From Methylotenera sp. (GTDB taxonomy: Bacteria; Pseudomonadota; Gammaproteobacteria; Burkholderiales; Methylophilaceae): DNA of 34,922 nt. The notes under the pieces were generated by a model, which was given only the letters and a program-made list of their open reading frames with translations, made no database searches and was not told the origin of the DNA. The stretch spans positions 1 to 34,922 of the forward strand of contig JABFSF010000063.1 of the NCBI GenBank assembly GCA_013140755.1, given 5' to 3'. This document shows positions 5,994 through 25,006 of the stretch, one piece after another; position 1 is the stretch's first letter; every line of letters starts with the position of its first letter. The translations under genes and the position numbers were made by a program.

Positions 5994-5996
5994 TGT

Positions 5997-6986: not shown

Positions 6987-6997
6987 ATACCCTCCCC

Positions 6998-8953: not shown

Positions 8954-9608
8954 GGTGGACTGACAGTTCAGTGATCATACTAAAAGGTGAAAGTCGTATG
9001 TCTGAAAATATTTTCTTCCGTATAATCAGACTAGCTATACAAGCATTAATGTCTTCAGAATCGAAAAATGGAAATTTTTGTACCAGTTTATAAAAAGTAA
9101 TTTTTCTGAAATTCTCTAGTTCTGACAGGATTTGATTTTCCATGGAGTAATCTATTGTCAGACCAGCCACACTGGAAAATCTTAAAAGATGTTTTAGATT
9201 TGCTAATTCAATAGAGTTGCTCTTAAGTGAATCTTTAGACCAATTTTGGTATTGATATCCGTACAGCCCACACCACCCATCCCAATCTAACTCACCATCA
9301 CCATCTTTAGTTTGTAATGTATGTATAGTAATTAGCCCATCTATATCCTGAGAGACGGCTCTAGGAGACGCTTTTGTAGCATGACCATTTTTAAAATTGA
9401 TCGGGAAAGATAAAACCTTCTCATTAAACTTTTTGATGGACTGATTTGTTTCTAACAATACCCATAGGTCGTACATGTTGTGCGAGTACAAATGCACTCT
9501 TCTGTTGAGTTTGGAAGAAAATGGGGCGTACAAATGAGCACAATAATTACCCCGCTCAAATGACTGAGGTGTTAACAGTTCATCAATGCTGATTACATCT
9601 TCATGCAT
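8940..9608 (-). CDS. tnsA: TnsA-like endonuclease subunit
   Basis: A 222-residue protein in the TnsA position, ahead of and overlapping tnsB. The stretch RRVHLYSHNMYDLWVLLETNQSIKKFNEKVLSFP matches the start of the TnsA nuclease fold, in which an early Glu precedes a strand describing the query sequence. Candidate active residues are E53, D88 (SQDID) and Q99-x-K101, resembling the Glu/Asp/Gln-x-Lys set of Tn7 TnsA, though the spacing is shorter and I cannot confirm alignment. The C-terminal half (about 130-222) looks like a winged helix. TnsA cuts the 5' ends to allow cut-and-paste rather than replicative movement. It is the first gene of the operon; a TATAAT on the minus strand at 9635-9640 may serve its promoter. 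Confidence 0.75.
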   Translation of the reverse strand: MHEDVISIDELLTPQSFERGNYCAHLYAPFSSKLNRRVHLYSHNMYDLWVLLETNQSIKKFNEKVLSFPINFKNGHATKASPRAVSQDIDGLITIHTLQTKDGDGELDWDGWCGLYGYQYQNWSKDSLKSNSIELANLKHLLRFSSVAGLTIDYSMENQILSELENFRKITFYKLVQKFPFFDSEDINACIASLIIRKKIFSDIRLSPFSMITELSVHHELS

Positions 9609-9816: not shown

Positions 9817-11457
9817 CTATCTAGAGCTCTTAGCGTATGCAATAGTAGTATTCACATCTCTACGCAAAATTTTACCATTCTTAGTACGTGGGAAATCTTT
9901 TGCTAAATAAACCGTTTTGGGTGATTTGTATGCGGCTAGATGCTGCTTACCAAATGCAAGCAAATCATCAGGTGTCATAGTTGCTTCGGCTTTTAGTATG
10001 ATATAAATCACTACTAGCAGTTTATCTTTCTCCAACTCTTCCCCTACGGCTGCACAATCAGCTACATCAGGGTGGCCTTTATATACACGCTCAATTTCAT
10101 AGGGTGAAACGCGGTAGCCAAAACTTTTGATAATGTCGTCTTTTCTGCCTAAGAACCAAATATAACCATCTTCGTCATATTTGGCATAATCGCCCGTAAA
10201 AAAATAACCATCATGCTTATATTTTACGGTTTCATCAGGCAAATTCCAGTAGCTTAAAAATAAGCCTGGGTCATTATCTGGCACACAAATCATGCCTTCC
10301 TCTCCAATTGGCACGGGCACCATAGTTTCTGGGTTAAGCAGGCGAATTGCATGGCCCGGCTGAGGGAATCCTGCAGAGCCTGCGCGAATTGGGCGGAATG
10401 TGCTTTGAGATAAATAATAAGAAAACTCACTCATGCCTACCGCTTCGTAAATATCCAACCCAAACCTTGCTCGCCATTGGCTAAGCACTTCGTCAGATAA
10501 ATGCTCGCCTGCGCTCATATAGTGACGTATCGTCGGTATCTCTGCTTGAGTTGCCGAAGTTTTTTGTAGTAATTGCCGATAAATTGTTGGCACGCCAATA
10601 AAAATCGTTGCGCGATGCTTGTTGATTAAATCTAGCCATTTTTGCGCATCATTCTTACCTTCATGCACAATCACGGTCTTACCTAAATAAAGCGGATCCA
10701 TTAACCCTGAGCCTAGCACGTAAGTCCAATTAAATTTACCAGAGTGCAAAATTCGATCTTGTCCATCACTATGATACTTAAACCAATAAGTAGAAGCTGG
10801 TTGACGTCCAAGCAAAGCGCGGTGAGCATGAAGCACCCCTTTTGGATAGCCTGTTGTACCTGAGGTGTAAACTAAATAAGCGGGATCATCGGCTTGAGTT
10901 CTGTGCGTAGCTTCAAAATCAGGAGCCTCATTCAGTTGGCGCGTAAGGCTTAACACATTGAAGTGGTAATGTTTTTCAATTTCATCTGTTTGCGTAACAA
11001 GTATATGTTGCAATTGTGGTGTTAAATGTTTTTGCTGGTCGAGATTTTCATGAAGCTGTTGCCATGCCTGCACATCTGTTACTAATACGGTAGCTCCAGA
11101 ATCTTTAGCTAAATAAGCCACTTCTTCTGCAGTAAGTAGTGTTGAAGTTGGCACGGCTATCGCGCCCATTTTCATCGCGCCTAAGAAAGCGATGGGGTAT
11201 TCCAAACTGTTGGGGAGGCGTATCAGTACCCTATCCCCCACTTTAATCCCTAAATGTTGCAAGACGGCTGCAAATTGATTGGTTCTTTCTGCTAACTCAG
11301 CAAAGGTAATTGAAGAGGTTCCTAATGTGTCATCTTCTACGATCATTGCGACGTGCTGCTCAAGCTCAGTGCCAAGATGTTGATCTGCACATGCCACACC
11401 AATGTTAAAGTTTTTTGGTAAATGCCATTGCCAAGTAGGGAATGTAGGAAAAGTCAT
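9817..11457 (-). CDS. AMP-forming acyl-CoA synthetase
   Basis: A 546-residue adenylate-forming ligase that would activate a carboxylic acid with ATP and CoA. The AMP-binding P-loop is YTSGTTGYPKGVLHAH (about 197-212), the A5 region is YEAVGMSEF, and the hinge and C-terminal motifs FTGDYAKYDEDGYIWFLGRKDDIIKSFGYRVSPYEIE and TKNGKILRR (catalytic Lys about 529) are all present, so the enzyme looks complete. The size is nearer medium-chain/benzoate-type ligases than to the roughly 630-residue PrpE. It overlaps the upstream CitE-like gene by ATGA and is the last gene of the sdh operon. The substrate is unknown; given its neighbours, a short-chain or C5 dicarboxylic acid (propionate, mesaconate, citramalate) is a reasonable guess. 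Confidence 0.85.
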   Translation of the reverse strand: MTFPTFPTWQWHLPKNFNIGVACADQHLGTELEQHVAMIVEDDTLGTSSITFAELAERTNQFAAVLQHLGIKVGDRVLIRLPNSLEYPIAFLGAMKMGAIAVPTSTLLTAEEVAYLAKDSGATVLVTDVQAWQQLHENLDQQKHLTPQLQHILVTQTDEIEKHYHFNVLSLTRQLNEAPDFEATHRTQADDPAYLVYTSGTTGYPKGVLHAHRALLGRQPASTYWFKYHSDGQDRILHSGKFNWTYVLGSGLMDPLYLGKTVIVHEGKNDAQKWLDLINKHRATIFIGVPTIYRQLLQKTSATQAEIPTIRHYMSAGEHLSDEVLSQWRARFGLDIYEAVGMSEFSYYLSQSTFRPIRAGSAGFPQPGHAIRLLNPETMVPVPIGEEGMICVPDNDPGLFLSYWNLPDETVKYKHDGYFFTGDYAKYDEDGYIWFLGRKDDIIKSFGYRVSPYEIERVYKGHPDVADCAAVGEELEKDKLLVVIYIILKAEATMTPDDLLAFGKQHLAAYKSPKTVYLAKDFPRTKNGKILRRDVNTTIAYAKSSR

Positions 11458-12584
11458 AGTATTACTCCATAAGGCCAGTTTTGACGTACCACTTGCGCAG
11501 GTAATAGTTGCAATACATGCAGTGCAAATTCCATGTCGCTAGTTTTTAACGCACGAAGTGCATGTGCTCTTAGCAAGGTTTGCAAGGCTTTACCAAACAT
11601 GGGGGGGTCAAGCATTTCACCTTCAAATTTGATTGCGCCCCCCAATAGGGCATCAGCATCAATCGCTGCTTTTAAAATCGCTACTTTTTGCGCTACATCG
11701 GTAGGAGAAGGTGTGTAAGCTGTTTTACACAAATGAATGTGGGCTGGATGTATCACCTGCTTGCCTGTTAAGCCCATGGCAGCTTCTTGACAAGCATGTT
11801 TATACACCACGCGCGATTCATTGTCGCCATGTAAATCTAACCAGCGGCGCACATCATGCGGCTCTAAGAATTTTTCTGGCATGGCACTAGCACCTATCAG
11901 TGTTTCAACGCCACCAATCACACCCTTACCCGCAATCCGTGCTTCAAACATTAGTTGATTCATGTAAAACTGCAACTCTTCAATCCAGTTTTCAGGGGTG
12001 ATATGAATACCCATCGCTTTTGAAAAGTCATGAATCCCAAATACCACATGTTTAACGGTGTTGTATTGCATCAACTCTGGGGCAATTTTGAGTGATTTCG
12101 GGTGTTCAATAATCGGCTGAATCGTGATGTTTGGATTAACACTCAATAAAAAACTGGAGAGGTCGCGGACTTCTGCCGCACCATAAGCTTCTCCTGCCTT
12201 AGCTAACATCACTACATCAATATATTCTCCCATCTCACACACCAGCTTCATATCTTCTTCATACTCATCGGTACGGAAAGAATTGGCGCGGATGGCAATG
12301 GTGACGCGCTGATTAACTTTTCTAAGCTGTGGGAGTTCTTGGCGTAGCAAGTCTCGGCTCATCTCTTTTTGACGACAACCATCTTCCAAGTCAAAAATCA
12401 GGGTGTGTGCACTAGTAAGGTGCGCATGTTTTTTCATGCGCGCAGATGCTTGCTCCATATCTTCGTATATCCCTAGACTTGGCGCATATTTCACTGGTGG
12501 GTAATACAGCTGAATACCTGGCCAATAATCGCCCAGTGCTTTTGCATCTAAAGCAATTGGCTGCTCTCCAATGTGTAGGGTCAT
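11454..12584 (-). CDS. CitE-superfamily CoA-ester lyase (376-aa type)
   Basis: A 376-residue TIM-barrel protein of the HpcH/HpaI-CitE superfamily. The key elements are DLEDG (65-69), a CoA-site Arg in IAIRANS (about 99), and the two predicted Mg ligands E160 (PIIEHPKSL) and D186 (VFGIHDFSKAMG). It is longer than typical CitE/Mcl (about 290-330), with extra sequence at both ends. Such enzymes cleave or make 3-hydroxyacyl-CoA such as malyl-, citramalyl- or methylmalyl-CoA. Its start is one base past the sdhE stop, with AGGAGA inside the sdhE end, and it overlaps the CoA ligase, so it may act on that ligase's product. The precise substrate cannot be read from sequence. Confidence 0.8.
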   Translation of the reverse strand: MTLHIGEQPIALDAKALGDYWPGIQLYYPPVKYAPSLGIYEDMEQASARMKKHAHLTSAHTLIFDLEDGCRQKEMSRDLLRQELPQLRKVNQRVTIAIRANSFRTDEYEEDMKLVCEMGEYIDVVMLAKAGEAYGAAEVRDLSSFLLSVNPNITIQPIIEHPKSLKIAPELMQYNTVKHVVFGIHDFSKAMGIHITPENWIEELQFYMNQLMFEARIAGKGVIGGVETLIGASAMPEKFLEPHDVRRWLDLHGDNESRVVYKHACQEAAMGLTGKQVIHPAHIHLCKTAYTPSPTDVAQKVAILKAAIDADALLGGAIKFEGEMLDPPMFGKALQTLLRAHALRALKTSDMEFALHVLQLLPAQVVRQNWPYGVIL

Positions 12585-12585
12585 G

Positions 12586-12867
12586 CTATGTCTCCTGATA
12601 ATTGAGGCGTGCGGTTTTTAACTTTTCAACCACAACTGCTGAATATTCAATTGGTTGCAGTGGTGCCGTAGTGTTTAACATGTGCCAGAACTGATTGTCA
12701 GGTAAATCTAGCATGGCATCAAACGCCTGCAACTCTGCTAGGTTCAGTGTGTTAAATTCATGCGCAATAAAGCGTTGCAATACAATATCAAGCTCGAGCA
12801 TCCCGCGCCTACAGCGCCATGCCAAACGTTTTTGCTCTGCCTCGCGTAAAATTTCAGCATTTAACAT
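12586..12867 (-). CDS. sdhE: SdhE-like FAD assembly factor
   Basis: A 93-residue protein of the SdhE/Sdh5 (YgfY) family, which helps attach FAD covalently to the SdhA flavoprotein. The diagnostic RGMLELD (RGxxE) motif is at about 21-27, and the length matches the family. The start follows the sdhB stop by 11 bases with a GAG-type ribosome site between them, and it is directly followed by the CitE-like gene. In many betaproteobacteria sdhE precedes a citrate synthase gene; here that place is taken by a CoA-ester lyase. Confidence 0.9.
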   Translation of the reverse strand: MLNAEILREAEQKRLAWRCRRGMLELDIVLQRFIAHEFNTLNLAELQAFDAMLDLPDNQFWHMLNTTAPLQPIEYSAVVVEKLKTARLNYQET

Positions 12868-12878
12868 TTCAACATCTC

Positions 12879-13616
12879 CTATACCGCTTTGATTGAAATC
12901 GATTTTTTATGCTTTTTAGTTTCTTTTGCACGCACAATTTTTAGATCTTTAATGCTGGCAATCGCCGCATTCGGGTTCAGTTTTTTTGGACACACATCCA
13001 CACAGTTCATGATGTTATGGCAACGATACAAGCGATAGGGGTCTTCCAAGTTCTCAAGCCGCTCCGTTTCTGCTTGATCGCGCGAGTCCACGATAAAACG
13101 ATAGGCCTGCATCAAGCCAGAAGGTCCCACAAACTTATCAGGGTTCCACCAAAAACTGGGGCAAGAGGTGGTGCAAGCACCACATAAAATGCACTCATAC
13201 AAACCATCTAACTTGGCACGGTCTTCTGGGCTTTGTAAACGTTCAGTTTCTGGCAATGGGTCATCGTTAATCAAGTAAGGCTTCACTGAGTTGTAATGCT
13301 CAAAAAACTGTGTCATATCTACCACTAAATCGCGTATTACTGGCAAGCCAGGCATAGGGCGCAATACCACAGGCTCTTCCAAATCAGTCAGCTTGGTGAT
13401 ACAAGCCAGCCCATTTTTGCCGTTAATATTCATCGCATCGCTACCACATACACCCTCTCTGCATGACTTGCGCAGACTTAAGGTATCGTCTAATTCTTTA
13501 ATGCGTAGCAAAGCATCGAGTAGCATGTGGTCTTCTTCATGCAATGCAACGTCGTAATCTTGCATGTAAGGTTTTTTATCTACATCAGGGTTAAAGCGGT
13601 AAATAGAGAATTTCAT
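12879..13616 (-). CDS. sdhB: Succinate dehydrogenase iron-sulfur subunit
   Basis: A 245-residue electron-transfer subunit of complex II. The [2Fe-2S] ligands lie in CREGVCGSDAMNINGKNGLAC (about 57-77), [4Fe-4S] in CILCGACTTSC (about 141-151), and [3Fe-4S] in CHNIMNCVDVCP (about 198-209). All clusters are intact. It passes electrons from SdhA to quinone at the membrane subunits. It lies 66 bases after sdhA and 11 before sdhE in the sdhCDABE order. The C-terminal tail is Lys-rich. Confidence 0.97.
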   Translation of the reverse strand: MKFSIYRFNPDVDKKPYMQDYDVALHEEDHMLLDALLRIKELDDTLSLRKSCREGVCGSDAMNINGKNGLACITKLTDLEEPVVLRPMPGLPVIRDLVVDMTQFFEHYNSVKPYLINDDPLPETERLQSPEDRAKLDGLYECILCGACTTSCPSFWWNPDKFVGPSGLMQAYRFIVDSRDQAETERLENLEDPYRLYRCHNIMNCVDVCPKKLNPNAAIASIKDLKIVRAKETKKHKKSISIKAV

Positions 13617-13682
13617 AGCCTTCCTAATCTTTTAGTCACTAAAGAACATAAAGTTCACGGTGATTTATCTGCGGGTACATTT

Positions 13683-15452
13683 TTAATACACTCTCTTTTT
13701 AGGCTCAAAACTTTCAACTGTTAGTGGTTTTAAACGCACATCTTTATAATCTAAGCGATTGTTTTGTTTATAAAAAAGTGAATGTTTAAGCCAATTTGCA
13801 TCATCACGCTCACTAAAATCTTCTCTAGCGTGTGCACCTCGGCTTTCAGTGCGATGATGCGCGGCATGCATGGTGGCCACAGCAACTTCCATTAAATTAT
13901 CTAGTTCCAATGCTTCAATCCGAGCGGTATTAAATACCTGGCTCGTATCATTGACGCGCACTTTTGCAATACGACTTGCCACTTCGTTAATTGCAGCAAC
14001 TCCCGTCTCAAGTAAATCTGGAAACCTAAATACCCCGCAGTGTGTTTGCATGGTTTTACGCATGGCTGCACCCACTTCTGCCACCGTTTCGCTATTGTTC
14101 GTATTTTCCAAGCGTGCAAGCCGCGCCAAAGTGCTGTCTGCAACACCTGCAGGGAGTGGTTTGTGAGCTGAAGATTGTGCAATTTCTTGCACCATTTTCT
14201 CGCCTGCTGCTTTACCAAATACCACTAAATCTAACAAAGAATTTGAACCCAAACGATTGGCTCCATGCACTGAAACACAGGCGCACTCTCCTACTGCATA
14301 TAACCCTTTAACCGCTCTTTCGCCATGCGCAGTCGGTTCAACCACTTGCCCATCTAAATTCGTCGGGATGCCACCCATCATATAATGCGCAGTCGGAACA
14401 ACAGGAATTGGATCTTTAATCGGATCCACATTGGCGAAGGTTTTCGCAATCTCACGTATCCCTGGCAAGCGCTTGTTAATCAACGCCTCACCCAAATGAT
14501 CTAACTTTAAGTAAACCGCGTCTTTATTTTTACCAACGCCGCGTCCTTGTTTAATCTCAGTTGCAGTTGCGCGTGAAATCACATCGCGGCTCGCTAAGTC
14601 TTTGGCATTGGGCGCATAACGCTCCATAAAACGCTCGCCTTCAGAGTTCACCAAATACCCCCCCTCGCCGCGCACTCCTTCCGTAATCAGCACACCAGCA
14701 TGTAATACACCTGTGGGGTGAAATTGCCAAAACTCCATATCTTGCAAAGGTAAACCCGCACGTGCCGCCATGCCCAAACCATCCCCCGTGTTAATAAAGG
14801 CATTAGTGCTGGCTTGAAAAATGCGCCCTGCTCCACCAGTTGCCAGCAAGGTGGTTTTAGCTTGGATGACATGAACCTCGCCTGTTTCAATCTCCAGCGC
14901 AATTACGCCCAATACATCGCCATCGCCATCACGAATTAAATCGAGCGCAAACCACTCAATAAAAAACTGTGTGTTAGCACGGATATTACGCTGATATAGT
15001 GTGTGCAACATGGCGTGCCCTGTTCTATCTGCCACGGCGCATGTGCGTGAAATTGGCTGTTCTCCATAATTTTTGGTCATACCACCAAACGGACGTTGAA
15101 AAATTCTGCCATTGTCTAGCCGATCAAATGGCATTCCAAAATGCTCTAGCTCAATAATCGCTTTGGCAGCATTTCGACACATAAACTCAATCGCATCTTG
15201 ATCACCTAAGTAATCTGAGCCTTTGATAGTGTCGTACATATGCCATAGCCAGTTATCTTCACTCACGTTACCCAGCGCGGCCGCAATTCCACCTTGCGCT
15301 GCCACTGTGTGGGATCGTGTTGGAAATACTTTGGATAGCACGGCAACTTTAACACCAGATTCCGCCAACTGTAGCGCAGCACGTAAGCCTGCGCCACCAC
15401 CGCCCACAATCACCGCGTCAAACTGATGATGTTCTAAATTATTTATCCCCAC
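13683..15452 (-). CDS. sdhA: Succinate dehydrogenase flavoprotein subunit
   Basis: The catalytic FAD subunit of complex II, oxidising succinate to fumarate. The frame has a dinucleotide motif [12 protein letters not shown] near its start, SHTVAAQGG containing the His that carries covalent FAD, and [22 protein letters not shown] near the substrate site. The frame opens with a TTG at 15470, but I prefer the GTG at 15452 because GGGG stands 8 bases before it; this gives 589 residues and a 10-base overlap with sdhD. The size is normal for the family. Part of sdhCDABE. In this locus it would also consume the succinate released by PrpB in the methylcitrate cycle. Confidence 0.96.
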
Positions 15453-15787
15453 AAAATTATCCCCAACCAAACTAAATAAGCCATAAGCACTAACTCAACA
15501 ACTAACTGTAACCACTCACGTAAAGTTACGTTAAATACATAGTCACGCATCACATCGCGTATGCCCAACCACGCATGTATAATCAAACAGGTAAAAAATG
15601 TAAATGTCAGCAATTGCCACCAAAGAAGTTGCCAAAACTGCTGCCAATGCACGAAATCATTGGGTGACTTTAATACAACAAATATCAGCGCAAGCACTAA
15701 ATACACCGCCATAAAAACAGCCGTCATGCGTTGCGTCAACCACCAACGCATTCCTGGGTATTTTTTAGTCAGTAGCTCAAATAACAT
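15443..15787 (-). CDS. sdhD: Succinate dehydrogenase membrane anchor subunit
   Basis: A 114-residue protein with three hydrophobic helices (about 20-42, 48-72, 88-112), as expected for the SdhD anchor of complex II. The [13 protein letters not shown] segment carries the His expected to bind heme b and nearby residues for the quinone site. It sits 6 bases after sdhC and overlaps the start of sdhA, which fixes its identity together with fold and size. Confidence 0.92.
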
Positions 15788-15793
15788 AGTGGT

Positions 15794-16180
15794 TTACCAA
15801 ATCTGCCAAGCAAAAATCGCTACAGTAATCGTATCTAAACACAACACCAAACGGCTTGAAAGCTGCGCTTTTTGTAAAGATGTCATCCAATGTACATCTT
15901 GTGCAAGATGCCTTATTCCCGCATAAAAGTGATGAAAAAACGGCCAAGCACAGGTAATCAGCACCAGTTTAACTAACACGTGCTGATTTAAGCTTGCTAG
16001 CCAATCATAGCTTTGTACATCTGTCACCGAAAGTTGAAAGCTCCATAACAATGGCGGAATTAGCAAAAACAACACCACACCACTCATTCGATGCAGAATC
16101 GAAACAACAGCGTTAATCGGTAACCGAATCGTCAATAGATTTAGGTTTTTGGGGCGATTTTTTGTTTGTTTGTTTTTCAT
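15794..16180 (-). CDS. sdhC: Succinate dehydrogenase cytochrome b556 subunit
   Basis: A three-helix membrane subunit of complex II. The family signature is visible as NLLTIRLPINAVVSILHRMSGVVLF, with the Ser/His/Arg triad near the quinone site, and HHFYAGIRHLAQDV, which holds the heme His. I place the start at the ATG at 16180 (128 residues); the frame extends three codons to a TTG. It is the first sdh gene, 33 bases after the malic enzyme stop on the same strand, so the two are likely cotranscribed. Confidence 0.92.
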   Translation of the reverse strand: MKNKQTKNRPKNLNLLTIRLPINAVVSILHRMSGVVLFLLIPPLLWSFQLSVTDVQSYDWLASLNQHVLVKLVLITCAWPFFHHFYAGIRHLAQDVHWMTSLQKAQLSSRLVLCLDTITVAIFAWQIW

Positions 16181-16213
16181 ATATAACAAGTCATAAAAGC
16201 CGAAGGGCTCAAT

Positions 16214-17410
16214 TTAATTTTTGACTGCCTTTGCCACCGCCCCTGCCACCCACGCCAGCAAGCGTTTATCAAAAGGCTTGGGGATAATGTATTCTTTGCC
16301 GAATTCAAGGTCTGTTAAATTGTAAGCTTGCAACACGTCCTCAGGCACTGGCTCACGTGCTAGCGCACTCAGAGCATTAGCCGCAGCAATCTTCATAGCT
16401 TCGGTAATTTGAGGGGCTTTGGCATCCAACGCCCCCCTAAAAAGGTAGGGAAAACACAAAGCGTTATTCACTTGATTTGGAAAATCACTACGCCCTGTTG
16501 CCATCAAAACATCATCGCGTAGCGCGTGCGCAACACTGGGTAAAATTTCAGGATCAGGGTTCGCTAATGCAAAAATAATCGGGTTCTCGGCCATTTTTAA
16601 TACCAAACTCGGGTCTAAGCCATTTTTAGCAGAAACTCCAATAAACACGTCCGCCCCTAAAATTACGTCTGATAAGGTTTTTTCAGCCGATGGCGCAACC
16701 GCCAATTCACGATTATTGTCATGCAAATCTTGGCGGTTAGTATCAATTACGCCCTTTCTATCCACCATGGTAATGTTTTTTGCTCCCATGCTTTTGAGTA
16801 GTTTTGCGCATGAACACCCAGCTGCGCCTGCACCTAAAAACACAATTTTTACCGTCGCGATAGTTTTACCTTGTAACTCTAAGGCATTAAGCAAAGCCGC
16901 AGCAACAATCACCGCTGTACCGTGCTGATCATCATGAAATACGGGAATATCTAAACGTTTTTTGAGTTCATTCTCAATATAAAAACAATGTGGTGCAGCA
17001 ATGTCTTCAAGGTTAATGCCGCCAAAGGTAGGCGCAATGTTGACTACCGTTTCAATAAATTCATCAGGCGTTTTAGCATTAATTTCAATATCAAATACAT
17101 CAATCCCCGCAAAACGTTTGAATAACACCGCCTTACCTTCCATCACAGGTTTACTCGCAAGCGCACCCATATTTCCCAAACCAAGCACGGCTGTGCCATC
17201 GGTAATCACCGCCACCAGATTACCTTTATTGGTATATTTGTATGCGTTTTGTGCATCCGCGTGAATTTCACGCACGGGCTCAGCCACACCTGGTGTGTAG
17301 GCAAGTGATAAATCCTCTTGCGTGGCGCAAGGCTTAGATGACTCCACACTTAATTTGCCAGGGATAGGAAATTGGTGATAATCCAATGCGCGTTGTTTTA
17401 GATCGTCCAT
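16214..17410 (-). CDS. Malic enzyme (short form, no PTA domain)
   Basis: A 398-residue malic enzyme that decarboxylates malate to pyruvate with NAD(P) reduction. Seen are the N-terminal [27 protein letters not shown], the nucleotide fold [16 protein letters not shown], and the ALANPDPEI signature. The frame opens 14 codons earlier, but the ATG at 17410 has AAGGG in place and matches the usual family start ([14 protein letters not shown]). It lacks the roughly 330-residue phosphotransacetylase-like C-terminal domain of long MaeB enzymes, whose loss often goes with different allosteric control. It lies between the GntR gene and sdhC, so it probably drains malate made from methylcitrate-derived succinate. 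NAD versus NADP preference is not readable. Confidence 0.9.
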
Positions 17411-17461
17411 TGTGTGCCCTTTACAACATAAAATTGCCAGCGTAGTTTTCAATAATCACCA

Positions 17462-18196
17462 TTATTCCAGCTCGCTCATATAATGATGATCATCGGTCAA
17501 ACAAAGTCCCAACCGCCATTCCATTGGGTTATCGCCATAGGTGAATGAAACTCTTTCAATGCTAAGCAATGGATACCCTTCTCTCAACCCCAGTGACTTT
17601 GCAACATCTTTTTCAGCAGCTACAGCTTTTAAGCGCTCTTCTGCACGAATCATACGTACGCCAAACTGTGATTCGTACATGCTGTACATAGAGCCATTAC
17701 TTTCCTCCACCTTGACGCTATTTAAGCCCTTAAATGGCGCGGCAGGTACAATAATGTGATCATAAATGAGTGGGCGACCCGAGAACGTGAGTAATCGTTT
17801 AACCTCTATTGTTGCAGCACCAGCTTTAATACCCAGTATTTGAGAAATATAGGTGCTTGCTTTAGTTTTATCGCATGATATAAATTCATTTTGCAATAAC
17901 TCCTTTTGTCCATTGACTGCTGTCAGGCGCAAAAAACGCAACTTAATCACATCTGCACTGTGCGTAGCAACAAACGTCCCCTTCCCCTGACGTCGAATCA
18001 AAATATTTTCGGTCGCAAGACTATCAATCGCTTTACGCACCGTACCTTGACTCACTTTAAAGCGCGCAGCTAATTCAATTTCACTTGGAATCATCTCTCC
18101 AGGCCGCCACTCTCCAGCAATTAAGCTTTGCGTAATCAACACTTTTATTTGCTCATAAAGCGGGCGATAACTTGGCGAAGTAAGTTGCTTGTCCAT
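17462..18196 (-). CDS. GntR/HutC-family regulator
   Basis: A 244-residue repressor-type regulator. The N-terminal winged helix (about 10-75) has the GntR signature PSEIELAARFKVSQGTVRKAIDSLATENILIRRQGKGTFVA. The C-terminal part (about 90-240) is a UTRA ligand-binding domain as in HutC proteins (APFKGL, MYSMYESQFG, LLSIERVSFTYGDNPMEWR). It stands at the divergence point of the two arms, 51 bases ahead of malic enzyme, and faces a palindrome-rich promoter region. GntR regulators of methylcitrate genes are known in proteobacteria. The ligand is probably a pathway intermediate such as methylcitrate or a CoA ester, which is inference. Confidence 0.92.
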   Translation of the reverse strand: MDKQLTSPSYRPLYEQIKVLITQSLIAGEWRPGEMIPSEIELAARFKVSQGTVRKAIDSLATENILIRRQGKGTFVATHSADVIKLRFLRLTAVNGQKELLQNEFISCDKTKASTYISQILGIKAGAATIEVKRLLTFSGRPLIYDHIIVPAAPFKGLNSVKVEESNGSMYSMYESQFGVRMIRAEERLKAVAAEKDVAKSLGLREGYPLLSIERVSFTYGDNPMEWRLGLCLTDDHHYMSELE

Positions 18197-18285
18197 GTTT
18201 TTATTGCCTTTTTACCTTTTCACGAGAAATCATTTTAACTGTTGGAGTATTTATAGCACGACAAATTTATTATGTCCAGTATTTT

Positions 18286-18310
18286 ATATCTTATATAAGA
18301 CATAAGATAT
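18286..18310. promoter_or_regulatory. Palindromic operator candidate for the GntR regulator
   Basis: Arms ATATCTTAT and ATAAGATAT flank 7 bases, and a second perfect 12-base palindrome TCTTATATAAGA (18289-18300) overlaps it. It ends 3 bases before the -35 box of the plus-strand operon and 90 bases from the GntR start, so a bound dimer could control both directions. AT-rich dyads of this kind suit HutC-type GntR proteins. The binding is inferred. Confidence 0.6.
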
Positions 18311-18313
18311 ATG

Positions 18314-18343
18314 TTGACATATTGATATTTACCTCTATATAAT
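18314..18343 (+). promoter_or_regulatory. Near-consensus sigma70 promoter of the mcl-prp operon
   Basis: A perfect -35 TTGACA (18314-18319) and perfect -10 TATAAT (18338-18343) are spaced by 18 bases. The start of transcription is expected near 18350, giving a leader of only about 25 bases before the ATG at 18376. Such a strong promoter next to a palindrome implies repression as the main control. Confidence 0.8.
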
Positions 18344-18375
18344 CAGCTTCAACATGATTTAATGGCTGAATACCC

Positions 18376-19257
18376 ATGGAATACTGTCTAAAACCAAGAC
18401 GCTCAATGCTCTATGTGCCAGGTTGCAACCAACACTACTTGGATCGCGCCCGCACGCTTGCGGCTGACTGCGTTATTCTTGATCTTGGCGATCCAATATT
18501 AGTGGATGCCAAAATTCAATCACGTGAAAATGTCGTCGCAGCTGTTAAACAAGGTGGTTATGGCTCACGTGAAGTCGTTGTCCGCGTCAATAATCTAGAT
18601 TCAATTTGGGGGCATGACGACATTAAAGCCGTTGCCAATATTGGTGCTGATGCTATTTTGTTTCCAAATATCGAGTCTCGTGAAGATGTGCTCAAAGCTC
18701 TCGCCTATTTGGATGAAGCTGGTGGTAGCCGCATGCCCATTATGGTGATGATTGAAAGCCCGATTGCTGTATTGAATGCTAAAGAAATTGCTTCGGCATC
18801 CGATAGAATTAGCTGTATGGTGATGGCAACTTCTGATTTAATCTCCCAGCTCCATGCTCGGGTAACACATGAACGCTCCGCGATTCTAACCTCACTCTCG
18901 TTAGTGACATTGGCTGCACGTGCATACGGGCGATGTGTGATAGATGGAATTACCAGTGATTTCAAAAACATGCATTCATTTGAATACGCTTGCAGATTGG
19001 GGCGTGATATGGGGCTTGATGGCAAATCTCTCGTGCATCCAGCACAAATCGCTTATTGTAACGATGCTTATACCCCCAAAGCGGGCGAAGTTGACCATGC
19101 AAGATTGATTATCAAAGCATTGAAAGAAGCGAACGAGTCTGGGCGAGGCACGGTGGTGGTAAACGATAAATTAGTAGAACATCACCATATCAAGGCAGCA
19201 CAACGTCTCATTAAGTTACATGAGGCGATTATTGAGCTTGAAGAAGGTTACATTTAA
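18376..19257 (+). CDS. Mcl/CitE-like beta-methylmalyl-CoA/malyl-CoA lyase
   Basis: A 293-residue CitE-superfamily enzyme most like malyl-CoA/3-methylmalyl-CoA lyases (Mcl). The start KPRRSMLYVPGCNQHYLDRA, the CoA-site Arg (VVVRVN, R70), predicted Mg ligands E127 (VMIESPIAVL) and D154 (ATSDL), and the C-terminal GLDGKSLVHPAQIAYCNDAYTPKAGEV plus GRGTVVVNDKLVE all fit. Unusually the normal DLEDAV motif reads DLGDPI (G38 replaces Glu). It would reversibly cleave 3-methylmalyl-CoA to propionyl-CoA and glyoxylate, supplying or using the PrpC substrate. It is first in the plus-strand operon and its stop overlaps the Mch start by one base (TAATG). The ribosome site is weak. Confidence 0.8.
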   Translation: MEYCLKPRRSMLYVPGCNQHYLDRARTLAADCVILDLGDPILVDAKIQSRENVVAAVKQGGYGSREVVVRVNNLDSIWGHDDIKAVANIGADAILFPNIESREDVLKALAYLDEAGGSRMPIMVMIESPIAVLNAKEIASASDRISCMVMATSDLISQLHARVTHERSAILTSLSLVTLAARAYGRCVIDGITSDFKNMHSFEYACRLGRDMGLDGKSLVHPAQIAYCNDAYTPKAGEVDHARLIIKALKEANESGRGTVVVNDKLVEHHHIKAAQRLIKLHEAIIELEEGYI

Positions 19258-20339
19258 TGAACATTTCAAACAAAATAAATGCTGGGCGTTTTTTTGAAAA
19301 CTTCCAACTAGGTGAAGTGATTCAACACGCCACCCCGCGCACTATTACCGCTGGGGATACCTCGCTATACATTGCGCTTTATGGTAGTCGCAATCCACTG
19401 CATTGTGCGGAACCTTTTGCGCAATCTCTAGGCTATAAAAGCACCCCCATTGACGATTTACTTGCCTTTCATATCGCCTTTGGCAAAACGGTGCCTGACA
19501 TTTCAGTCAATGCAGTGGCCAATTTAGGTTATGCCGATGTGCGCTTTTTGCAGCCTGTGTTTGTGGGCGATACGCTTGGTACCTCAAGTGAAGTGATAGG
19601 TCTGAAACAAAACTCCAGCGGCAAAAATGGTGTGGTGTATGTGCGCTCAACTAGCGTCAATCAACATAACCTCCCCGTGCTCAGCTGGGTGCGTTGGGTC
19701 ATGGTGCATAAAAACAATTTAGACGCGCCTGCACCTGAAACGGCGATTCCAGCATTACCAGCGTTTATTGAGGCAGAACACCTCACCATACCGCAAAATT
19801 TTTCTACAGCGCGTTTTGATGCTAAAAACATCAATGGGCAATACTTTTGCGAAGATTACCAAGTGGGTGAGCGCATCAATCATCCATCAGGCATGACCAT
19901 TAACGAGAGCGACCACAGCTTAGCCACGCGGCTTTACCAAAACAATGCGCGTTTGCATTTTGATGCACACGCCATGCAAAGCTCTACATTTGGCAAACGC
20001 TTAGTGTATGGCGGCGTGGTGATTTCAGCTTGCCGTGCACTCAGTTTTGAAGGGCTGGAAAATGCATTATGCATTGCCGCCATCAACGCAGGCACTCACG
20101 CTAATCCAAGCTTTGCAGGTGACACCATTTACACGTTTACCGAAGTGCTAGACCGTTGGGAACTCGCGAATAGAGCCGATATTGGTGCACTACGCCTACG
20201 CATGGTAGGCCTTAAAAACGCGCAGCCGAGTGAGATAAGCGAAATTAAACAATTTAATAGCTACCACCCCAATGTGGTGTTAGACCTTGATTACACCGTA
20301 TTGATGCCAAAACGTAGCAACAGTAAAGGAAACCCATAA
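19257..20339 (+). CDS. Mesaconyl-CoA hydratase-like protein (Mch family)
   Basis: A 360-residue double-hotdog MaoC-type hydratase. The N-terminal half strongly resembles mesaconyl-C1-CoA hydratase (3-methylmalyl-CoA dehydratase) of the ethylmalonyl-CoA pathway: GRFFENFQLGEVIQHATPRTITAGD, DDLLAFHIAFGKTVPDIS, NAVANLGYADVRFL, and a later RWVMV segment. The C-terminal hotdog (about 195-350) holds MTINESDHSLATRLYQNNARLHFD, with candidate catalytic Asp/His. The length matches Mch (about 350). It would interconvert mesaconyl-CoA and 3-methylmalyl-CoA and is coupled by one-base overlaps to the Mcl-like gene before it and the CitE-like gene after it. Such a pair without other ethylmalonyl-CoA genes points to a stand-alone mesaconate or propionyl-CoA/glyoxylate branch. 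Confidence 0.85.
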   Translation: MNISNKINAGRFFENFQLGEVIQHATPRTITAGDTSLYIALYGSRNPLHCAEPFAQSLGYKSTPIDDLLAFHIAFGKTVPDISVNAVANLGYADVRFLQPVFVGDTLGTSSEVIGLKQNSSGKNGVVYVRSTSVNQHNLPVLSWVRWVMVHKNNLDAPAPETAIPALPAFIEAEHLTIPQNFSTARFDAKNINGQYFCEDYQVGERINHPSGMTINESDHSLATRLYQNNARLHFDAHAMQSSTFGKRLVYGGVVISACRALSFEGLENALCIAAINAGTHANPSFAGDTIYTFTEVLDRWELANRADIGALRLRMVGLKNAQPSEISEIKQFNSYHPNVVLDLDYTVLMPKRSNSKGNP

Positions 20340-21325
20340 TGGCAGTGCATCCTAATGACGCCCTTTTTAGTGGCGAAAAACCCTTCCCGCTGATTCCAGC
20401 TTGTGAGCATTTTGCAGGAAGCGAAAAGCTCATCTTAAAAGCACTGTCACTGCAAGATTCTATTGGCCCTGTGTTCGACATCACTTGCGATTGCGAAGAT
20501 GGCGCAGCCTCAGGCCAAGAGCGTGAACATGCGCAAATGATAGTGCGCGTGCTGAATTCAGAAGCCAACAAACATCACATGGCAGGTGCGCGCATTCACG
20601 ACTACACCCACTCTGCTTGGAAGTTGGATATTGATATTTTGGTGGGTGGTGCAGGCAAGCTGCTTAGTTATATTACCATTCCAAAATGTACTGATATTGC
20701 ACAAGCCAAAGAAATGATTGCTTACCTGCAAAAGGTTGCCGCGTTTCACGGTGTCGAGCGCGTGATTCCCGTACACATTTTGATTGAAACGCATGGCGCA
20801 CTTAATCAAGTACATCAGATTGCCGTGCTGCCTTGGGTGCAAGTGCTGGATTTTGGCTTAATGGATTTTGTCAGTGCGCATCATGGCGCCATTCCAGCAG
20901 CAGCGATGCGTAGCCCTGGTCAATTTGAGCATCGCCTACTGGCGCGTGCCAAGGCAGAGGTCGTGGCTGCTGCCCTCGCCAATGGCGTGGTACCTGCACA
21001 TAACGTAACCCTTGATCTTAAAAACGTTGAAACCACGCTCAGTGACGCCACGCGCGCGCGCAACGAATTTGGCTTTTTACGCATGTGGAGCATTTACCCC
21101 ACGCAAATTCAAGCCATCGTTGACGCCATGAAGCCTAACTATGATGAGGTGAATGACGCTGCCAATATTTTACTGGCAGCCCAAGCCTCAGATTGGGGGC
21201 CGATTCAATATGCGGGTGAGTTGCATGATAGAGCGACCTATCGCTATTTCTGGGAAGTGCTACAAAAAGCAAAAGTCACAGGGGTTGCCATTTCAGAACA
21301 AGCAGTAAAAGCATTTTTTAATTAA
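20339..21325 (+). CDS. Second CitE-like aldolase/lyase of the operon (328-aa type)
   Basis: A 328-residue HpcH/HpaI-CitE superfamily protein of a subfamily distinct from the other two in this locus. The acidic motif reads DCEDGA (51-56), predicted Mg ligands are E150 (HILIETHGAL) and D176 (VLDFGLMDFVSAHHGAIP), and an Arg-containing GARIHD stretch lies near 85, so the active site appears complete. The C-terminus ends in a helical region different from Mcl. Candidate substrates are malyl-CoA, citramalyl-CoA or methylmalyl-CoA. Its ATG overlaps the Mch stop, which ties its synthesis to the hydratase. A thioesterase activity like that of some Mcl2-type homologues is another possibility. Confidence 0.78.
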   Translation: MAVHPNDALFSGEKPFPLIPACEHFAGSEKLILKALSLQDSIGPVFDITCDCEDGAASGQEREHAQMIVRVLNSEANKHHMAGARIHDYTHSAWKLDIDILVGGAGKLLSYITIPKCTDIAQAKEMIAYLQKVAAFHGVERVIPVHILIETHGALNQVHQIAVLPWVQVLDFGLMDFVSAHHGAIPAAAMRSPGQFEHRLLARAKAEVVAAALANGVVPAHNVTLDLKNVETTLSDATRARNEFGFLRMWSIYPTQIQAIVDAMKPNYDEVNDAANILLAAQASDWGPIQYAGELHDRATYRYFWEVLQKAKVTGVAISEQAVKAFFN

Positions 21326-21337
21326 GCATTATTAAAA

Positions 21338-21464
21338 TAGCCACAGAGCACACAGAGGACATCAATTTTTATAACCATGTGTTGATGAAAACGTAATGTA
21401 GATAGTTTTCAAATCATCATGTGTTTTGAGTTTTTCAGGTTTCTCTCTGTGAGCTCTGTGGCTA
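21338..21464. repeat. MITE/REP-like inverted-repeat element
   Basis: A 127-base element bounded by 20-base inverted repeats with 19 matches (TAGCCACAGAGCACACAGAG and its near complement). Internal parts also pair imperfectly (GTGTTGATGAAAAC with GTTTTC...CATGTG), so the whole could fold into one long hairpin. The CCACAGAGnnCACAGAG type of sequence is, from memory, a dispersed intergenic repeat in several proteobacterial genomes. It separates the mcl-mch-citE genes from prpBCD, ending 17 bases before the prpB start, and could affect transcription through or RNA stability of the operon. Confidence 0.7.
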
Positions 21465-21481
21465 AAAAATGAAAGATTACT

Positions 21482-22366
21482 ATGACTACACTGACATCCG
21501 CAGGAGCACGCTTTCGCGCAGCATTGGCTACTGAAAAGCCGCTTCAAATTATCGGTGCTATCAATGCCTATCATGCGCTACTTGCTACACATACAGGCTA
21601 CAAAGCCTTGTATTTATCTGGCGGTGGCGTGGCGGCTGGCTCATTGGGCATCCCCGATTTGGGTATTTCCACCTTAGAAGACGTGCTGATTGACGTACGC
21701 AGAATTACTGATGTGACCGAAACACCACTGTTGGTGGATATTGATACAGGCTTTGGCGGCGCATTTAACATCGCACGTAGCATCAAAAGTATCATCAAAG
21801 CAGGTGCGGCTGCTGTGCATATTGAAGACCAAGTGTCTGCTAAACGCTGCGGGCATCGCCCTAATAAGGCAATTGTTTCACTGAATGAAATGGTGGATCG
21901 CGTTAAAGCTGCCGTTGATGCAAAAACAGACCCTGACTTCGTGATTATGGCACGCACTGACGCACTTGCTGTAGAAGGCTTGCAATCGGCAATTGACCGC
22001 GCCTGCGCCTGTGTAGAGGCTGGGGCGGATATGATATTCCCAGAAGCGATTACTGAGCTTGGTATGTACAAACAATTTTCTGCCGCAGTCAAAGTGCCCG
22101 TATTGGCCAACATTACAGAGTTCGGTGCAACGCCACTTTTTACCGTCAATGAATTAAGCGATGCAGATGTGAGCATGGTGCTCTATCCGCTTTCTGCTTT
22201 CCGCGCCATGAACCAAGCCGCGCTCAGCGTGTATGAAGCGGTGCGTAGAGAAGGTACACAAGCCAGTGTTGTGCCTTTAATGCAAACCCGTGCGGAATTA
22301 TACGAACACTTAGGCTACCACGCCTTTGAGCAGAAATTAGATGAACTCTTTAAAGGAGAAAAGTAG
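21482..22366 (+). CDS. prpB: 2-methylisocitrate lyase
   Basis: A 294-residue enzyme that cleaves 2-methylisocitrate to pyruvate and succinate. The isocitrate-lyase-family signature KRCGHRPNK places the catalytic Cys at 123, the same number as in E. coli PrpB. Also present are [17 protein letters not shown] (substrate Ser/Gly loop), the metal-site DIDTGFG (86-88) and HIEDQ (115). The Arg of CGHR and the [11 protein letters not shown] stretch favour methylisocitrate over isocitrate. It starts right after the inverted-repeat element and ends one base before prpC. Its product succinate matches the sdh genes on the other arm. Confidence 0.95.
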
Positions 22367-22367
22367 C

Positions 22368-23528
22368 ATGTCAGCCACGACTAACACTTCTACGCAAGAA
22401 CCCAAAAAGAAAAAAGGCGTTGCACTCGCTGGCGTGGCGGCTGGTACTACCGCGATTTGCACCGTCGGACACACAGGCAATGATTTACACTACCGTGGTT
22501 ACGACATTATTGAACTTGCAAAATCTGCCACATTTGAAGAAGTGGCTTACCTGCTCATTCACGGCGAGCTGCCTAATCAAGCTGAGCTCACGGCTTACCA
22601 TGCGCGTTTAAAACAATTACGCGGTATTCCACAAGCACTTAAAGAGGTGTTGGAGCGTATTCCTAAAACAGCCCATCCGATGGATGTTATGCGCACTGGC
22701 TGCTCAATGCTGGGGACACTAGAGCCTGAAGCCCAAGACCGCAACATTCACGATACTAAAAAATTAGGTGATCGCTTGATTAGTTGCTTTAGCGGTGTTT
22801 TGCTCTATTGGTATCACTTTAGCCACAATGGCAAACGAATTGACGTGGAATCCGATGAAGACTCTATCGCTGCTCACTTTTTATATTTATTACACGGCAA
22901 AAAACCTTCGGCTTTACACATCAATGCCATGAATACCTCACTAGTGCTATATGCAGAGCATGAGTTTAATGCTTCCACTTTCACTAGCCGCGTGATTGCT
23001 GGCACGTTATCCGACTTATATTCGTGCATTACTGGTGCTATTGGCGCACTGCGCGGCCCGAAGCATGGCGGTGCCAATGAAGCCGCGATGGAAATTATCG
23101 AGCGCTATAAAACAGCTAATGAAGCCGAAGCCGACATCATGGCGCGGATGGCAAGAAAAGAAATTATTATCGGATTTGGTCACCCTGTTTACACCATTGC
23201 AGATCCACGTAACGAATCTATCAAAGCTGTTAGCCGCAAGCTGTGTGAAGATGATGGCAATATGACGTTATTTAATGTCTCAGCACGCATTGAAGAAACC
23301 ATGTGGCGTGAGAAAAAAATGTTCCCTAATCTTGATTGGTACAGTGCCTCTAGCTATCACATGATGGGGATTCCTACTGGCATGTTCACCCCGATTTTTG
23401 TGATTTCACGTACTACTGGCTGGGTGGCGCACGTGATAGAACAGCGCATTGATAACAAAATAATTCGCCCAAATGCGGAATATACAGGACCAGAAAACCG
23501 CCCCTATATTCCTTTAGAACAACGTTAA
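22368..23528 (+). CDS. prpC: 2-methylcitrate synthase
   Basis: A 386-residue citrate-synthase-family enzyme condensing propionyl-CoA with oxaloacetate. Catalytic His/His/Asp regions are visible: [30 protein letters not shown], and the Asp near SARIEETMW. The short length and the N-terminal [32 protein letters not shown] are typical of PrpC rather than hexameric GltA (about 430). I chose the ATG at 22368 because AAAGGAGA precedes it and the prpB stop is directly adjacent; the frame opens nine codons earlier. Some residual citrate synthase activity is usual in this family. Confidence 0.94.
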
Positions 23529-23545
23529 TTTTTGAAAGTTTTATT

Positions 23546-25006
23546 ATGTCTGCACATATCTCTAACGTCCGCCCTGCCCCAGACCAAGTGATTGTTGATA
23601 TTGCTAATTACGTGGCTGATTTCGACATCAACAGCTCTGAGGCTTATGACACTGCACGTAATTGCTTAATGGATACTTTAGGTTGTGGTTTTGAAGCCTT
23701 AGACTACCCAGCTTGCACCAAACTACTGGGGCCCGTGATTGCTGGCACCGTTGTACCTAATGGAGCAAAAGTACCAGGTACCAATTATCAATTAGACCCC
23801 ATCTTAGCCGCCTTCAACATCGGTGCTATGATACGCTGGTTAGACTTTAACGATACATGGCTCGCCGCTGAATGGGGTCACCCCTCCGATAATTTAGGCG
23901 GCATTTTAGCGGTAGCGGATTATATTTCACGTAAAAGTGTGGCTGAAGGGAAAGCACCACTTACCGTGAAAGATGTACTCACCGCCATGATTAAAGCGCA
24001 TGAGATTCAAGGCGTGCTAGCATTGGAAAACAGCTTTAACCGCGTGGGACTAGACCACGTGATTTTAGTGAAAATCGCCTCCACGGCTGTCGTTACCAAG
24101 CTTTTAGGTGGTAATAAAGAAGATATTATCAACGCGGTTTCGAACGCGTTTGTGGATGGCCAAAGCTTGCGTACCTATCGCCACTCACCAAATACTGGCT
24201 CACGTAAATCATGGGCGGCAGGTGACGCGACCAGCCGTGCGGTGCGTTTGGCATGGATGACGCTACAGGGCGAAATGGGCTACCCTTCTGCACTTACAGC
24301 TAAAACATGGGGCTTTTACGATGTGCTATTTAAAGGCAACGCATTCAAGTTCCAACGCAACTATGGCTCTTATGTGATGGAGCAAGTATTATTCAAAATC
24401 TCATTTCCCGCTGAGTTTCATGCACAAACCGCAGTGGAATGTGCATTCCAACTCAATGCAGAAGTAGGAAGCAAGCTACAAACCTTAGAGCAAATTGCAG
24501 CGATAGATAAAATCGTCATTACGACACACGAGTCTGCCATTCGCATTATTGATAAAACTGGGCCGCTGGATAACCCTGCAGACCGCGACCACTGCATTCA
24601 ATACATGACTGCCGTAGGATTACTTAAAGGTAACTTGACGGCAAAAGATTATGAAGATGAAGCTGCGGCTGACCCGCGCATAGATGCCATTCGCGCAAAA
24701 ATGGTGTGCGTAGAAAAAATGCAATATACAACGGATTACCATGACCCAGAAAAACGCTCCATTGCTAACGCCATCCAAATCTTCTTCAAAGATGGTGGTG
24801 CTTCTAGCAATATCGCTGTGGAATACCCCATTGGTCACCGCCGCCGCCGCGGTGAAGGTATTCCTGAGTTAGTAAAAAAATTCAAAGTCAATTTAGCTCG
24901 TCGTTTTGATACTAAAAGACAGGTGGACATTTTAGAGCTATGCTTAGACCAAACCAAACTAGAAGCTACACCAGTGAATGTGTTTGTAGATATGCTAGTT
25001 GCTTAA
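23546..25006 (+). CDS. prpD: 2-methylcitrate dehydratase
   Basis: A 486-residue MmgE/PrpD-family enzyme that dehydrates 2-methylcitrate to 2-methyl-cis-aconitate. Characteristic stretches are the start [77 protein letters not shown], and the late [22 protein letters not shown]. The length is right for PrpD (about 480). It lies 17 bases after prpC and is the last gene of the operon, ending before a strong hairpin. No acnD/prpF pair is present, consistent with the PrpD route plus a general aconitase for rehydration. Confidence 0.95.

Follow-up and report, generated by a model that had tools for sequence, protein, structure and literature searches.

What a Methylophilaceae methylcitrate cycle is fed with is the question raised by a divergent gene cluster in Methylotenera sp. 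The window, by which we mean the whole 34,922-nucleotide stretch analyzed (contig JABFSF010000063.1 of assembly GCA_013140755.1, contig C119 in our numbering, from a genome of 2.6 Mb that is 99.6% complete), carries this cluster at positions 9817-25006, arranged around a gene for a GntR-type regulator. A 2013 paper reports in the passages concerned that the cluster is highly expressed in situ while the main one-carbon (C1) assimilation route falls, with gntR among the most over-expressed genes, and it calls the metabolite that the cluster processes unknown (PMC3728764). Our analysis suggests that the locus is an SdhR-type Methylophilaceae methylcitrate cluster joined to a separable module acting on dicarboxyl-coenzyme A (CoA) esters of five carbons (C5). 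The module would split a C5 acid such as mesaconate into propionyl-CoA plus glyoxylate, which would then be processed onward. We consider this reading about evenly poised between right and wrong; it is the one that best fits the gene order, the active sites and the co-occurrence of the genes.

The gene set and the divergent layout that the first-pass annotation described are present, as judged from Pfam, NCBIfam and PDB matches. Leftward from gntR run malic enzyme, sdhC, sdhD, sdhA, sdhB, sdhE, cit376 and a ligase gene, and rightward run CitE-1, Mch, CitE-3, prpB, prpC and prpD:

9817..11457, minus strand: AMP-forming acyl-CoA ligase gene lig (Pfam AMP-binding, 269 bits), in the place of prpE in the published gene list
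11454..12584, minus strand: cit376, CitE-superfamily protein of 376 aa (HpcH_HpaI, 47.6 bits), with all lyase residues intact
12586..12867, minus strand: sdhE, succinate dehydrogenase (SDH) flavinator (Pfam Sdh5, 73 bits, cut-off 27)
12879..13616, minus strand: sdhB (NF004616, 364.6 bits, cut-off 228, subfamily)
13683..15470, minus strand: sdhA (TIGR01816, 954 bits, cut-off 727, equivalog)
15443..15787, minus strand: sdhD (TIGR02968, 87 bits, cut-off 41.8, equivalog)
15794..16189, minus strand: sdhC (TIGR02970, 115 bits, cut-off 52.3, equivalog)
16214..17452, minus strand: malic enzyme, short form of 412 aa (Pfam malic, 114.9 bits; Malic_M, 82.8 bits)
17462..18196, minus strand: GntR/UTRA regulator of HutC type (Pfam UTRA, GntR), a putative SdhR by its operator match
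18282..18307, no strand: predicted SdhR operator with the core TCTTATATAAGA at 18289-18300, matching 24 of 26 positions of the published motif
18376..19257, plus strand: CitE-1, 293 aa, called Mcl in the first-pass annotation, with a lid glutamate and E44 replaced by glycine; a predicted thioesterase-group protein or pseudo-enzyme
19257..20339, plus strand: Mch, mesaconyl-C1-CoA hydratase or beta-methylmalyl-CoA dehydratase (PDB 4e3e, 424 bits; 8hgn, 379 bits)
20339..21325, plus strand: CitE-3 (cit3), 328 aa, of the PDB 3qqw/3r4i family (522 and 379 bits), with intact lyase residues
21482..22366, plus strand: prpB, methylisocitrate lyase (NF008455, 540 bits, cut-off 353)
22341..23528, plus strand: prpC, methylcitrate synthase (NF009006, 676 bits, cut-off 550)
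23546..25006, plus strand: prpD, methylcitrate dehydratase (NF006943, 884 bits, cut-off 575)

The cut-offs exceeded by prpB, prpC and prpD are all NCBIfam equivalog cut-offs, and the closest matches of Mch are Methylotenera records. The three CitE-superfamily proteins that had been counted in the locus are confirmed; they are the only matches to PF03328 (HpcH_HpaI) in the genome at an E value of 0.001. PF02910 has two matches, sdhA being the stronger, and the weaker one on contig C67 we take to be L-aspartate oxidase. Because there are just these two matches, the SDH of the locus looks like the only one in the genome.

The best 80 of 151 stretches fetched by Mch reveal that part of this cluster is a unit of its own. 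Six genes form a divergon, with the ligase, CitE-376 and GntR genes on one arm and CitE-1, Mch and CitE-3 on the other. This core occurs together with prp, sdh and malic enzyme genes in 47 of the 80 loci, and the whole arrangement is therefore not due to chance. Thirteen other loci, of Gallionellaceae type, have the six-gene core only, without prp or sdh next to it or a malic enzyme close by. The missing prp operon is directly seen in nine of these 13, since at least 5 kb is present after Mch, and the remaining four have just 1.2-2.3 kb there. Two loci (Chromatiales, Sedimenticola) are without gntR and have another gene order, with CitE-1 at 38% identity. The set had been proposed to be one pathway; it is not an indivisible one, since in both the Gallionellaceae-type and the Chromatiales-type loci the ligase/CitE/Mch module is found away from prp and sdh. 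Of the rest, three are without sdh (two Methylophaga and one gammaproteobacterial metagenome-assembled genome) and 15 have a partial core near contig ends. A cit376 search across the class at an E value of 1e-60 finds matches in six of 369 genomes, our own counted, so the module looks rare outside these families. On plasmids, cit376 as query gave 20 records, all below 30% identity. An apparent cit376-ligase fusion in one locus (a 1424-aa open reading frame in L110) is an artefact in which the ligase frame stays open backwards over its neighbors in a high-GC genome, and the stretch concerned is not cit376.

Beyond the ligase gene, 2.5 kb or more of sequence is available in ten of the 13 core-only loci. 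Three of these carry a full-length malic enzyme that belongs to another branch (54-55% identity to the window's) and begins less than 100 bases after the ligase (L060 4137-5318, L074 1221-2405 and L076 1362-2585). It appears to be a second, separate joining of a malic enzyme to the module. In one Methylophaga locus (L049, 701-3969), a phosphoenolpyruvate (PEP) synthase and its regulator PpsR adjoin the ligase arm, and open reading frames of similar size are found in a second Methylophaga locus (L053).

The active sites of the three CitE proteins are in very different states. Residue positions were taken from HMMER alignments with 4l9y and 5ugr, and orthologues were counted, with the window included, if they exceeded 85% of the query length and 36% identity. 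CitE-3 keeps the seven catalytic and metal residues of the lyase set (R76, E141, D168, E44, D45, D42 and the lid residue D299) in 75 of 75 proteins, and CitE-376 keeps them in 66 of 66, save one X at R76. Of the seven, CitE-1 retains only R76 and D42 throughout its 78 proteins. E44 is glycine in 76 and tyrosine in two, D45 is lost in seven, D168 is lost in four and E141 is alanine in three, while the lid residue D299 is glutamate in 76 (E268 in the window protein) and glutamine in two. In L058, L060 and L076, which are three separate contigs, a magnesium-ligand glutamate of CitE-1 has become alanine; CitE-3 has its residues unaltered in every protein counted. The CitE protein next to Mch had been assigned as the malyl-CoA lyase (Mcl), but with E44 as glycine and D299 as glutamate it lacks the residues of an Mcl1-type malyl-CoA lyase active site. 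It does carry the feature of Mcl2-type malyl-CoA thioesterases, a lid glutamate in place of aspartate. Because this lid is combined with a decayed metal site, CitE-1 is predicted to be a thioesterase-group protein or a pseudo-enzyme and not an Mcl.

In Ruegeria, Rhodococcus koreensis and Variovorax, the CitE-1 relatives combine the lid glutamate with an intact metal site. In Ruegeria the relative is followed by two small genes, a MaoC protein gene (51% identity to Mch) and then sdhCDAB, a gene order that we believe to be similar in Rhodobacter sphaeroides. The CitE-1 model (mean predicted local distance difference test, pLDDT, 88.5) has malyl-CoA lyases and CLYBL as its nearest folds, with TM scores of 0.82-0.84 by query length among the first five, so its fold cannot separate a lyase from a thioesterase. 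The Ccl/RipC equivalog (NF038242) of itaconate degradation (Ict, Ich and Ccl) scores 115, 52 and 51 bits here and so stays below its cut-off of 375.

CitE-1 may act without catalysis of its own. In known malyl-CoA lyases, the lid residue serves the neighboring subunit (PMC3832036), and a subunit with a glutamate lid could therefore alter what its partner does. A CitE-1 pseudo-enzyme that tunes CitE-3 or CitE-376 by joining it in mixed trimers would be compatible with a C5 acid being split to propionyl-CoA and glyoxylate. The decay at E44, D45, E141 and D168 with R76 and D42 retained speaks for such a role, but the nearly invariant lid glutamate fits a catalytic role too, and we regard the pseudo-enzyme as fairly unlikely.

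Mch aligns end to end with a Chloroflexus MaoC-domain protein (4e3e) and with the Methylorubrum mesaconyl-CoA hydratase (8hgn). The passages of PMC10164722 on the latter structure name eight malate-contact residues, and all eight (F71, S79, N85, R142, N226, H231, Y248 and G249) are kept in an alignment read by eye. The Chloroflexus and Rhodobacter enzymes run in opposite ways, and the direction of Mch is not fixed by its sequence. For the ligase, none of the 25 NCBIfam matches listed reaches its cut-off and there is no propionate ligase among them. The malate synthase N-terminal domain (PF20656) has no match in the genome; other malate synthase types were not searched separately.

The distribution of the module points to propionyl-CoA as its product. 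We searched 120 Methylophilaceae genomes for cit376 and prpB. Each query first hit 73 genomes, and after removal of G061 and G116 from the cit376 hits (a CitE-1 cross-match only) and of G024 and G070 from the prpB hits (weak paralogues), cit376 is present in 71, prpB in 71 and both in 70. The two exceptions, G052 (cit376 fragments) and G116, are less than 90% complete. The two genes are 9.4-10.2 kb apart in the eight genomes inspected. The first-pass annotation had named rare joint occurrence of the two arms in relatives as the finding that would speak against it; instead, 70 of the 120 genomes hold both genes and one each holds a single gene.

The association extends to genomes in which the two arms are not adjacent. 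Among 120 genomes from the family of a Gallionellales record (G491), which we refer to as the Gallionellaceae sample, cit376 occurs in 16 and prpB in 47. All 16 module genomes have prpB, and so do 31 of the remaining 104 (Fisher p = 4.8e-8, with relatedness ignored). The two genes lie on different contigs in 12 of the 16 and on the same contig, 22-479 kb apart, in four. We then considered 22 module genomes, including our own and 13 that are also in the Gallionellaceae sample. Eighteen have prpB above cut-off, two have none (G203, G327) and two have a match below cut-off (G501, G502). All four that lack a full prpB match MM_CoA_mutase (PF01642), and the matches are strong in G203, G327 and G502. 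In G501, one match falls in a frame of 1103 aa that may be a different mutase, and the other is truncated where the contig ends. Both prpB and MM_CoA_mutase are found in G180 and G500. Our own genome has no PF01642 match (the control matched in eight of 14 genomes). That prpB or a mutase match exists in all 22 module genomes suggests that propionyl-CoA is produced and has to be removed.

The 179-bp divergent promoter region contains the core TCTTATATAAGA. Of 73 gntR/CitE-1 intergenic regions, 69 have it unchanged and four with one or two changes, and the exact core occurs nowhere else in those 73 loci (a first-order model predicts 0.04 occurrences in the 1.35 Mb that the 80 loci span). Positions 18282-18307, upstream of the regulator, match the SdhR palindrome TCTTATGTCTTATATAAGACATAAGA at 24 of 26 positions. 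SdhR is a GntR regulator of the HutC subfamily whose motif is printed in the part of PMC4494728 that describes it, and the match suggests that the GntR protein of the locus is SdhR. The usual HutC consensus GTNTANAC is present in none of 74 intergenic regions. In five loci (L113, L114, L119, L115 and L116), the core is absent within two mismatches from about 3.85 kb around prpB, so a shared Gallionellaceae regulon is not shown. A second near match in the window (two mismatches, at 16177) is at chance level. In Burkholderia arboris the same core stands before the GntR-domain coding part, inside an over-long open reading frame.

Relatives of the module enzymes on plasmids and in other clusters bear on its substrate. 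Among six plasmid stretches that each contain a CitE-3 relative, two (Cupriavidus oxalaticus and Sphingobium) have this relative (63-67%) directly after an Mch relative (53-55%). The Cupriavidus oxalaticus cluster also holds an MmgE/PrpD protein, an acyl-CoA dehydrogenase and, two genes away, a CoA transferase whose best match is succinyl-CoA:mesaconate CoA-transferase (458.6 bits, cut-off 700). A mesaconate or methylsuccinate degradation cluster would be expected to look like this. The Sphingobium and Variovorax paradoxus stretches each have a family III CoA transferase. The former scores evenly low (best 134 bits, below cut-off), the latter is closest to succinate-glutarate CoA-transferase (266 bits, below cut-off), and the transferases beside CitE-3 relatives are thus, by these scores, not all mesaconate-like. 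In Burkholderia arboris (L094, 4711-10222), the CitE-3 relative (52%) sits between mdh and prpD (72%), near sdh and with a GntR gene (51%). The window cluster may descend from a tricarboxylic acid cycle cluster like this one.

The left arm is cut short in the window relative to its relatives. A fumarase gene lies beyond the ligase in all four relatives inspected, and acnB does so too in two of the three with room. L096 and L099 have a class I fumarase and acnB after the ligase, L097 has the class I fumarase with no adjoining acnB, and the contig of L075 ends within the N-terminal part of a fumarase. In our own genome, a class I fumarase and acnB lie on another contig (C153; L112 11324-15904). 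This acnB is 88% identical to that of L096, which passes TIGR00117, and it supplies the aconitase (AcnB) required by the methylcitrate cycle. SDH and fumarase, both found in the genome, would lead towards regeneration of oxaloacetate.

These genes can be arranged in a pathway, the simplest one that gives each of them a role. We infer the reactions of the ligase and of the three CitE proteins, the assignment of lyases to steps and the direction of flow from the observed gene content, homology, active-site states, operator and co-occurrence. The ligase would convert mesaconate, or a close C5 acid, to its C1-CoA ester, and the class I fumarase that adjoins it in relatives could also supply mesaconate from citramalate. 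Mch would hydrate mesaconyl-C1-CoA to beta-methylmalyl-CoA, which CitE-3 could cleave to propionyl-CoA and glyoxylate. PrpC, PrpD, AcnB and PrpB would then take propionyl-CoA and oxaloacetate to pyruvate and succinate, and SDH, fumarase and malic enzyme would take succinate to pyruvate. CitE-376 may condense glyoxylate with acetyl-CoA to malyl-CoA, and CitE-1 may help to release malate from it for malic enzyme. If malate and pyruvate are products, then one would expect neighbors such as the PEP synthase in L049 and the malic enzyme that three core-only loci, out of ten with enough sequence, have after their ligase. The absence from the genome of matches to the malate synthase N-terminal domain and to family III CoA transferases also speaks for this arrangement, as do the plasmid CitE-3/Mch pairs, the Ruegeria neighborhood of the CitE-1 relative and the OM43 transcripts described below.

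Several observations weigh against this arrangement. The nearest solved structures of the ligase are benzoate-CoA ligases and 3etc and not a dicarboxylate ligase, and there is no transporter among the six core genes (the flanking genes are mostly unnamed). A thioesterase role of CitE-1 is doubtful because E44 is gone and some relatives are without metal ligands as well. The AlphaFold2 model of CitE-376 is poor (mean pLDDT 66.5, below 50 over residues 212-290), and its fold matches are used at the superfamily level only. No SdhR site is present within about 1.5 kb of prpB in the Gallionellaceae-type loci L113, L114 and L119, and no Mch is seen in four of the six plasmid stretches (Cupriavidus metallidurans, Azoarcus, Variovorax paradoxus and Burkholderia arboris). 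The propionyl-CoA outlet of G501 is uncertain.

The same enzymes could run in reverse. Propionyl-CoA and glyoxylate would be joined to beta-methylmalyl-CoA and carried through mesaconyl-CoA, mesaconate and citramalate to acetyl-CoA and pyruvate, with fumarase acting as mesaconase and followed by the ligase and a citramalyl-CoA lyase. The route would resemble the second loop of the 3-hydroxypropionate bi-cycle, with hydrolysis and the ligase replacing its intramolecular CoA transfer. Such a flow would employ the ligase, both lyases, the thioesterase-like protein and the class I fumarase. Fumarases of class I are able to work as mesaconases (PMC4682846), and in relatives a fumarase gene stands next to the ligase. 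Many carriers are of Gallionellaceae type and could form glyoxylate if they are autotrophs. Gallionellaceae-type bacteria are reported to be autotrophs. However, a consumer of propionyl-CoA does not need the prpB or mutase-family match that is present in 22 of 22 module genomes, nor the prpB present in all 16 module genomes of the Gallionellaceae sample. Fumarase is needed equally by the methylcitrate cycle, and family III CoA transferases (PF02515) have no match in our own genome (the control matched in five of 14 genomes). We consider reverse flow improbable.

We give equally little credence to an ordinary propionate or methylcitrate cluster, in which the ligase would be propionyl-CoA synthetase (prpE) and the CitE proteins and Mch would only repair or clear malyl-, citramalyl- or mesaconyl-CoA side products. 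It has on its side the name prpE in the published annotation (PMC4109929, gene list), a study on malonate and propionate catabolism, so described by its title, that PMC4494728 cites where it deals with SdhR, and the Burkholderia arboris CitE-3 relative in plain sdh/mdh/prpD surroundings with no Mch in the stretch seen. Against it, the ligase/CitE/Mch unit is without adjoining prp in 13 of the 80 loci and has a gene order and an operator of its own, Methylophilaceae genomes tend to have either both module and prp or neither, and the ligase is below cut-off for the NCBIfam matches listed, with no propionate ligase there.

The first-pass annotation could name no described pathway with this gene set, but the genes have been published as the methylcitric acid cycle cluster of Methylophilaceae in passages of PMC3728764, PMC4109929 and PMC6794327. 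PMC4109929 gives prpCBD, cyl1, maoC, cyl2, gntR, mdh, sdhABCD, cyl3, prpE, fum and can, conserved among the genomes compared there. PMC6794327 reports the order as conserved and the cluster as lost in Methylopumilus, and names propionate as the pathway substrate. In these papers the ligase is called prpE and the CitE proteins are cyl1-3, and the substrate is either left open or taken to be propionate. The passages concerned do not set apart the module, its active sites or its occurrence outside the family. A marine OM43 relative has the cycle and raises it on dissolved organic matter, according to sections of PMC5120137, where the transcripts of a putative HpcH/HpaI aldolase and a CoA ligase with neighboring locus numbers peak on the same material. 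This pair is probably the counterpart of the window's cit376 and ligase.

Other known systems share single steps with the C5 module. Mch is common to it and to the end steps of the ethylmalonyl-CoA pathway (Mch, Mcl1 and Mcl2, in the portions of PMC2948502 and PMC10164722 that treat them), where a lyase and a thioesterase are reported to act as an apparent malate synthase in Methylobacterium; the Ruegeria Glu-lid CitE protein near MaoC and sdh is a further likeness. In contrast to that pathway, the lyases of the locus belong to other CitE branches and a ligase is present. Our genome has no ethylmalonyl-CoA mutase, since PF01642 is without a match. The methylaspartate cycle of haloarchaea, as far as PMC5592240 describes it in the parts concerned, has a CoA-transferase in place of the ligase and an Mch of a different branch, and propionyl-CoA would here enter the methylcitrate cycle instead. 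The second loop of the 3-hydroxypropionate bi-cycle has Mch and a CitE-type lyase in common with the module (PMC6593406, relevant passages), but our genome has no Mct because it has no family III CoA transferase. Relative to the SdhR system as presented in PMC4494728, the regulated divergon would here include the C5 module.

No paper on the five-enzyme module was among the matches listed for the Creative Commons-licensed literature, which is not proof of absence. New here are the module, its active-site states, the SdhR operator match, the co-occurrence of cit376 and prpB and the plasmid CitE-3/Mch pairs. The methylcitrate cluster had a role called unknown in 2013, and the five enzymes offer a substrate class, a product and an operator to test and suggest what the cycle may be fed. 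If the pathway is as drawn, two labels in the literature come into question, that of prpE for the ligase and that of lyase for one CitE protein out of three. A broader claim is that this is an undescribed, ligase-started C5-dicarboxyl-CoA pathway with its own divergon, common to methylotrophs and relatives of iron oxidizers, in which a Glu-lid CitE protein devoid of its metal site and two true lyases would yield propionyl-CoA and malate. If so, this pathway, coupled to the methylcitrate cycle, would let supposedly obligate C1 users draw on multicarbon acids in nature. This claim is tentative, and we lean somewhat against it.

The place of the relatives' ligase-adjoining fumarase is occupied in the window by a low-GC block at 4266-9608 (GC fraction 0.34-0.39 versus 0.43-0.48 over 10-30 kb). 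It holds four minus-strand open reading frames (575, 329, 651 and 222 aa) with weak TniQ, weak TnsC and AAA_22 matches, and it is perhaps a divergent Tn7-like element.

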